This document shows positions 7,629 through 8,215 of a stretch of DNA of 33,020 nucleotides, piece by piece. The DNA lies in assembly GCA_007693845.1 (NCBI GenBank), contig RECV01000126.1, forward strand, positions 1 through 33,020, written 5' to 3'. Each line of letters begins with the position of its first letter. Position 1 is the first letter of the stretch. Source of the stretch: Phycisphaerales bacterium. GTDB lineage: Bacteria > Planctomycetota > Phycisphaerae > Phycisphaerales > SM1A02. Position numbers and translations under genes: made by a program. The notes under the pieces were generated by a model that saw only the letters and a list, made by a program, of their open reading frames with translations, had not been told where the DNA came from and searched no databases.

Positions 7629-7659
7629 AAAAACCGCGTGCACGAGGTCGTACACGCGG
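7629..7659 (-). terminator. intrinsic terminator of rpmE
   Basis: On the minus strand an 11-base stem with one mismatch (CCGCGTGTACG / CGTGCACGCGG, loop ACCT) is followed directly by TTTTT. It lies 58 bases after the rpmE stop codon. The plus strand has no T run after the stem, so it acts mainly on the minus-strand transcript. Confidence 0.8.
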
Positions 7660-7716
7660 CGTGGTTGATCAATGCAGCCTGCCGCCTGCCAGTTCATCAG
7701 CAGGCGTAACGGGCGA

Positions 7717-7941
7717 TTACTTCTTCTTGTTCTTGAAGTAGTTGCCCGCAAACTTCTTCTGGAATTTCTCGACCCGGCCGGCGGTATCCACGAACGAACT
7801 CTTGCCGGTGAAGAACGGGTGGGAACCGGACCAGATTTCGACGCTCATCTCCGGCACGGTCGCGCCGACGGTCATGACGTGCTCGCCGCGGTAGAAGACC
7901 TTGCAGTCGTGATGGTACTGGGGATGAATCTTGTCTTTCAT
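7717..7941 (-). CDS. rpmE: 50S ribosomal protein L31, zinc-free form
   Basis: bL31 is a large-subunit protein that helps bridge the two subunits. The 74-residue product begins MKDKIHPQYH and contains HPFFTGKSSFVDTAGRVEKF, both diagnostic of L31. It ends in a basic tail (NYFKNKKK). The four zinc-binding cysteines of the C+ form (CxCG and CxxC in E. coli L31) are replaced: VFYRGE instead of the first pair and WSGSHPFF instead of CSKCHPFF. It is therefore a C- type L31. The one Cys (DCKV) is off-register. The ATG at 7941 has GGGAG upstream; the longer frame is discarded because L31 starts here. The gene is flanked by a predicted promoter, a structured leader and an intrinsic terminator, so it is probably monocistronic. 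Confidence 0.95.
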   Translation of the reverse strand: MKDKIHPQYHHDCKVFYRGEHVMTVGATVPEMSVEIWSGSHPFFTGKSSFVDTAGRVEKFQKKFAGNYFKNKKK

Positions 7942-7985
7942 GGCGGACGCTCCCGCAAGAATGTTCGGGTTCTGGACGAGTTCCG

Positions 7986-8034
7986 TTCGCACGGGTGAAT
8001 GCGATGGCCGATCGGCCGTATCGCTCCGTGCGAA
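7986..8034 (-). promoter_or_regulatory. long stem-loop in the rpmE (L31) mRNA leader
   Basis: The leader folds into a nested stem: perfect 9-base arms TTCGCACGG (7986-7994) and CCGTGCGAA (8026-8034), an inner stem GCGAT (8001-8005)/ATCGC (8020-8024), and the apical palindrome GGCCGATCGGCC (8006-8017). It starts within about 10 bases of the predicted transcription start and ends 44 bases before the ATG, leaving the ribosome site free. Leader-mediated autogenous control of L31 is known in other phyla, so this may be the planctomycete counterpart (inference). Confidence 0.6.
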
Positions 8035-8046
8035 GTCGAGCCCAGT

Positions 8047-8074
8047 AGTGTAGGGATTCCGGCGTCGGATGCAA
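8047..8074 (-). promoter_or_regulatory. predicted rpmE promoter
   Basis: On the minus strand TTGCAT (8069-8074) and TACACT (8047-8052) are separated by 16 bases. The -10 matches 4 of 6 consensus bases. Transcription would begin near 8040, giving a leader of about 100 bases that contains the stem-loop at 7986-8034. Confidence 0.45.
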
Positions 8075-8156: not shown

Positions 8157-8215
8157 ACGCGGCTCAGCCCAGCGTGTCCGGGCGGTTTTGGTCTGCAATT
8201 TGAGAGTTCTGTCCT

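Follow-up and report, generated by a model that had tools for sequence, protein, structure and literature searches.

A hairpin under apparent selection as RNA in the rpmE leader of a Phycisphaerales bacterium, and a possible general 5′ stem-loop on ribosomal-protein messages

In the 33,020-nucleotide stretch of Phycisphaerales DNA analysed here (the window), the gene for ribosomal protein L31, rpmE, is preceded by a leader with a long hairpin. An earlier note on this DNA proposed that the hairpin is an RNA specific to L31, through which the protein controls its own gene, and the question is whether that is so or whether the hairpin belongs to something wider. In five other lineages the L31 leader is in each case a single hairpin, unrelated in sequence to the others, and the survey that describes L31 leaders makes no mention of planctomycetes (PMC7247131). 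Nor did a ribosomal-protein leader from a planctomycete turn up in our literature search. Conservation of a hairpin before a single ribosomal-protein gene is, alone, no evidence of autoregulation.

The gene lies on the minus strand (7717–7941; ATG at 7941, stop at 7717) and is the single L31 copy in the genome. Its product, a bL31 protein, matches PF01197, has NF001809 as its best NCBIfam model (score above the cut-off), and is a variant without the zinc-binding cysteines, keeping one Cys while the CxC/CxxC ligands are missing, as the earlier note had said. The note went on to argue that zinc control (Zur) is less likely, which is reasonable, and that RNA control is more plausible, which does not follow; the loss of zinc ligands lowers the odds of Zur but favours no RNA mechanism, and the zinc argument is therefore non-discriminating. 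A hairpin resembling an intrinsic terminator (7633–7660, minus strand; 12 pairs, then TTTTGCATTG) sits 3′ of rpmE, so the gene is probably monocistronic. Convergent to rpmE is a gene for a staphylococcal-nuclease-like domain protein with an N-terminal hydrophobic stretch (PF00565; 6758–7570, plus strand), and its divergent neighbour is rpsL (8216, plus strand). A tRNA-Asn(GTT) gene adjoins rpmE in many relatives, mostly as the divergent upstream neighbour (L003, L006, L007, L008, L010, L014, L018, L019, L022, L026, L031, L070), a position that rpsL occupies in the window's genus. The neighbourhood of rpmE is altered between lineages, yet a 5′ hairpin is retained.

The predicted rpmE promoter (8047–8074, minus strand) has a −35 element TTGCAT at 8074–8069, a 16-nt spacer and a −10 element TACACT at 8052–8047. 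A strict consensus scan missed this promoter, which the earlier note had also placed upstream of the gene; however, TTGCAT, 16 nt, TACACT and then GGCTC fits a promoter form common to the rpmE genes of the order, which aligns in relatives and is kept in the congener discussed below. The promoter PWM derived from rpmE upstream regions shows TAnnnT and, after it, either GGCTC or the variant CGATTC, and, being trained on rpmE leaders, it must be read with caution when applied to other genes. The GGCTC element (8038–8042, minus strand) lies at the predicted 5′ end of the transcript. The genome contains 17 exact matches to TAnnnTnnnnGGCTC and 79 to the reversed control pattern, which shows no overall enrichment. 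Six of these 17 sites, however, precede rpmE, rpsL, rpmB, rpmI, rpmA and lepA (in the window, 8038–8042 on the minus and 8161–8165 on the plus strand; elsewhere, L074, L076, L078 and L082). This promoter form may mark the promoters of translation genes, and we infer that GGCTC would be their discriminator or initial transcribed element.

Because rpmE is encoded on the minus strand, the relevant RNA is that of the minus strand. It forms an 18-pair hairpin (7986–8034) made up of a 9-bp basal stem with arms TTCGCACGG (8034–8026) and CCGTGCGAA (7994–7986), a 1x6 internal loop, a 5-bp stem of GCGAT (8024–8020) with ATCGC (8005–8001), a 2-nt bulge, and a 4-bp stem with a GATC loop, in which the 12-base palindrome GGCCGATCGGCC (8017–8006) folds as GGCC-GATC-GGCC. 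The coordinates that the earlier note gives are all exact, whereas the statement that the hairpin begins near the transcription start holds for the predicted start only; its 5′ side lies about 7–8 nt past that point, or 4 nt if a C-G/C-G extension forms. On the other side, a 31-nt linker (7955–7985) separates the hairpin from the Shine-Dalgarno sequence GGGAG (7950–7954), 8 nt before the ATG. Between hairpin and start codon (7942–7985, minus strand), 40 of 44 positions are identical in the congener.

Taken by itself, the window sequence gives marginal evidence for the hairpin (P about 0.02–0.05). Among dinucleotide shuffles of the leader, 2% contain perfect 9-base arms within 60 nt and 4.9% a hairpin of equal stability, and this modest significance is what speaks for a functionless chance hairpin in a GC-rich leader. 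The rpmE-sense strand reaches z −1.94 against its own shuffles, and the plus strand, at −0.10, folds no better than its shuffles. The comparison within the genus weighs against chance. The leader locus is present in one of the two other genomes of the genus examined (G002), where the 49-nt hairpin has equal length and differs by 11 substitutions, none of which breaks any of the 18 pairs; when the same substitutions are placed randomly on the same bases, 0.3% of trials break no pair (P 0.003). Five of the 11 fall in the 36 paired columns, against six in the 13 unpaired ones (Fisher p 0.047). Folded as a two-sequence consensus, the leader scores z −4.4 on the sense and −2.2 on the antisense strand; in this genus the corresponding values are +0.3 for the rpsL and +1.1 for the rpmI leader. 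A chance origin is thereby left quite improbable.

An operator for a regulator of the divergent rpmE and rpsL promoters, or a cruciform, would place the function in the DNA. Two nested inverted repeats do lie just downstream of the promoter, and the two species do not differ in the 12-bp palindrome; the arm pair, however, occurs once in the genome, and its arms are 31 bp apart. More telling are the changes themselves. One A-U pair has become G-C by change on both sides, two G-C pairs have become G-U, and one U-A has become U-G; the last three, each on one side only, preserve pairing in the rpmE-sense RNA alone, since on the opposite strand they would be A-C mismatches. Selection therefore matches the rpmE transcript rather than a DNA palindrome, an explanation that we regard as very improbable. 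Because no pair is broken, one change is double-sided and the G-U changes pair in the sense strand only, the hairpin is, by a comparison that comprises two sequences and one clear double change, an RNA structure under selection in the genus. To this extent the proposal of a structured RNA in the rpmE leader stands.

Beyond the genus the hairpin could not be followed. Among 181 genomes of the same family, a search with the leader DNA matched only in G002, and a covariance model from the two sequences found no convincing homologue in 169 rpmE upstream loci (best E 0.07, outside any leader); in its own genome, that model scored significantly for the rpmE leader itself and nothing else. The alignment across Phycisphaerae that the earlier note had suggested thus fails outside the genus. 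No Rfam family matches the leader, and no L31 model does so at any score up to E 10, though with the same library the E. coli rpmE control matches RF03157 at 60 bits. On these searches, the rpmE hairpin as such is confined to the genus. Viral contigs were also scanned with the rpsL protein and gave nothing useful.

The position of the hairpin is shared far more widely than its sequence. In the sample of 169 rpmE upstream regions, most genera have a hairpin of unrelated sequence that starts within about 10 nt of the GGCTC-type element, and in 36 of 41 groups it reaches −6 kcal/mol or better, a descriptive count without a null of its own. A consensus-fold signal is present in the rpmE leaders of groups g19 (z −4.5), g17 (z −4.7) and g7 (z −2.3); failure of the sequences to align leaves the consensus folds of g33, g34 and g35 non-significant. 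Very short rpmE leaders (about 20–35 nt), which end in TCGGAG or TGGAG and have no room for a hairpin, are seen in g42 (L059, L245, L270–L273, L276, L279–L282) and g39 (L254–L266). That several genera, g39 and g18 among them, have very short leaders without a hairpin counts against a general 5′ stem-loop.

Other ribosomal-protein genes share this position. The excess of stems starting 1–6 nt into the segment after GGCT amounts to z −0.98 for rpmE, −1.15 for rpmB, −1.01 for rpmI and −0.97 for rpsL (pooled p 1.7e-11), and rpmE does not differ from the other three (p 0.91). This is an average effect across leaders, which rests on predicted transcription starts and on groups (genera or genomes) that are not fully independent. 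Windows further downstream are flat, and pseudo-leaders taken from upstream of the promoter score −0.24. That the invariant GGCTC letters produce the signal as an artefact was considered and rejected: shuffles in which the first six letters (GGCTCG) stay constant retain it (pooled z −0.86, p 3e-9), and it persists, more weakly, when these letters are omitted (z −0.54, p 4e-5) or when the shuffles preserve local base composition (z −0.52, p 9e-5). The signal also stayed after the last 14 nt were excluded, so that GGCTC pairing with the Shine-Dalgarno sequence was discarded as its cause. Whole-leader folding energy was tried as an rpmE-specific test and given up: rpmE genera have a mean z of −0.43 (p 0.005) and control ribosomal-protein leaders −0.31 (p 0.30), and since the controls are alike it is uninformative on specificity. 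In 400 kb of genome G033, non-ribosomal genes offered 17 weak promoters (z −0.36, p 0.19), too few that are recognisable. Short leader hairpins with apparent compensatory changes, judged by eye, are found in g19 before rpsL (CGCCT..AGGCG / CGTCT..AGACG; L352, L380–L388) and before rpmB (CGCC..GGCG-type / CGCA..TGCG; L298, L391–L402). Because rpmB, rpmI and rpsL show an equal excess, the 5′ stem-loop is not specific to rpmE, and it looks like a general 5′-end feature of ribosomal-protein messages.

The reading we favour, though we hold it tentatively and at somewhat short of an even chance, is that the rpmE hairpin is a large example of a lineage-wide 5′-terminal stem-loop on ribosomal-protein mRNAs, serving generic protection of the 5′ end. 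Ribosomal-protein transcripts of Phycisphaerales would tend to open with a GGCTC-type element and, a few nucleotides on at most, to fold into a hairpin whose sequence evolves freely, leaving open the region before the Shine-Dalgarno sequence. Such a stem-loop would make the 5′ end a poor substrate for 5′-end-dependent mRNA decay, and abundant ribosomal-protein messages would thereby last longer, in the manner of the E. coli ompA 5′ stem-loop. Stabilisation of mRNAs by 5′ stem-loops is established in E. coli and other bacteria (PMC7509114, PMC3997798); for rpmE, the transcription start is a predicted one and the role in mRNA stability a presumed one. The 7–8 (or 4) unpaired nucleotides before the hairpin are more than ideal for 5′-end protection, and the hairpin of this genus is much larger than such protection needs, with an asymmetric internal loop of conserved size. 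Its size and asymmetry, with no such structure in the rpsL and rpmI leaders of this genus, hint at something more specific.

The more specific function first proposed is autoregulation, in which L31 bound to the hairpin would reduce the translation or the mRNA level of rpmE; Phycisphaerales would then have a counterpart to the L31 leaders known from other phyla. Those leaders, too, are single hairpins, unrelated to one another in sequence (PMC7247131), and the one in E. coli acts through a long asymmetric stem-loop (PMC9825181), a shape present here as well. The hairpin in this genus is a single one whose 1x6 internal loop keeps its size under compensatory change, and it lies in a 5′ UTR that leads to rpmE alone. 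Near the start codon, a predicted 4-bp pairing of CCCG (7969–7966) with CGGG (7955–7952) overlaps the Shine-Dalgarno sequence and could mask part of it. Against these points, there are no conserved nucleotides and no homologue outside the genus, the two species have different internal-loop bases (ATTCAC / ACGGAC), the hairpin lies clear of the Shine-Dalgarno sequence, and the covariation seen extends to two congeners, with no rpmE-specific motif that covaries across many species. With no Rfam L31 leader recognised, no result here that indicates L31 as a ligand, and the pattern common to other ribosomal-protein genes, an L31-specific autoregulatory RNA becomes less likely, and we consider it rather doubtful. 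The leader could instead work by translation standby, anti-Shine-Dalgarno or other cis control, the 5′ hairpin shaping ribosome access without L31 as ligand, and the CCCG/CGGG pairing would suit this. The linker (27 of 31 identical) and the segment from Shine-Dalgarno to start (13 of 13) are the most conserved parts of the leader; yet the pairing, being invariant in the congener comparison, tells neither for nor against, covariation is absent there as it is from linker and Shine-Dalgarno as a whole, and conservation of the Shine-Dalgarno region is expected anyway. We think this explanation unlikely.

A broader form of the favoured stem-loop reading is possible, and we put it forward with less confidence: ribosomal-protein transcripts of Phycisphaerales might form a co-regulated class, in which a shared GGCTC-start promoter and a hairpin conserved in position and free in sequence would together make a 5′-end module that sets the output of the translation apparatus, with rpmE as one case. 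Such a module could, for example, combine growth-rate-dependent initiation with 5′-end protection. If the general 5′ stem-loop is true, it provides a testable rule for how Phycisphaerales mark ribosomal-protein mRNAs.

Set beside known systems, the leader resembles the L31 leaders of Rfam (clan CL00118, e.g. RF03157, L31-Gammaproteobacteria) in being a single hairpin upstream of a lone rpmE, and differs from them in matching no model, in showing no conserved binding nucleotides, and in that similar hairpins precede other ribosomal-protein genes. With the 5′ UTR of E. coli l31, which is repressed by L31/L31p, it shares an asymmetric internal loop in a long stem; the sequences are unrelated, and in E. 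coli the match to the leader model stops 6 nt short of the rpmE start codon, whereas here the linker parts hairpin and Shine-Dalgarno sequence. Compared with the ompA-type stem-loop of E. coli, the rpmE hairpin is larger and has 4–8 unpaired nucleotides at its 5′ end. The likeness to that type is that a stem-loop stands close to the predicted 5′ end of what is an abundant mRNA, with an open region before the Shine-Dalgarno sequence, and that structure is kept while sequence drifts, other genera having different hairpins at the same place.
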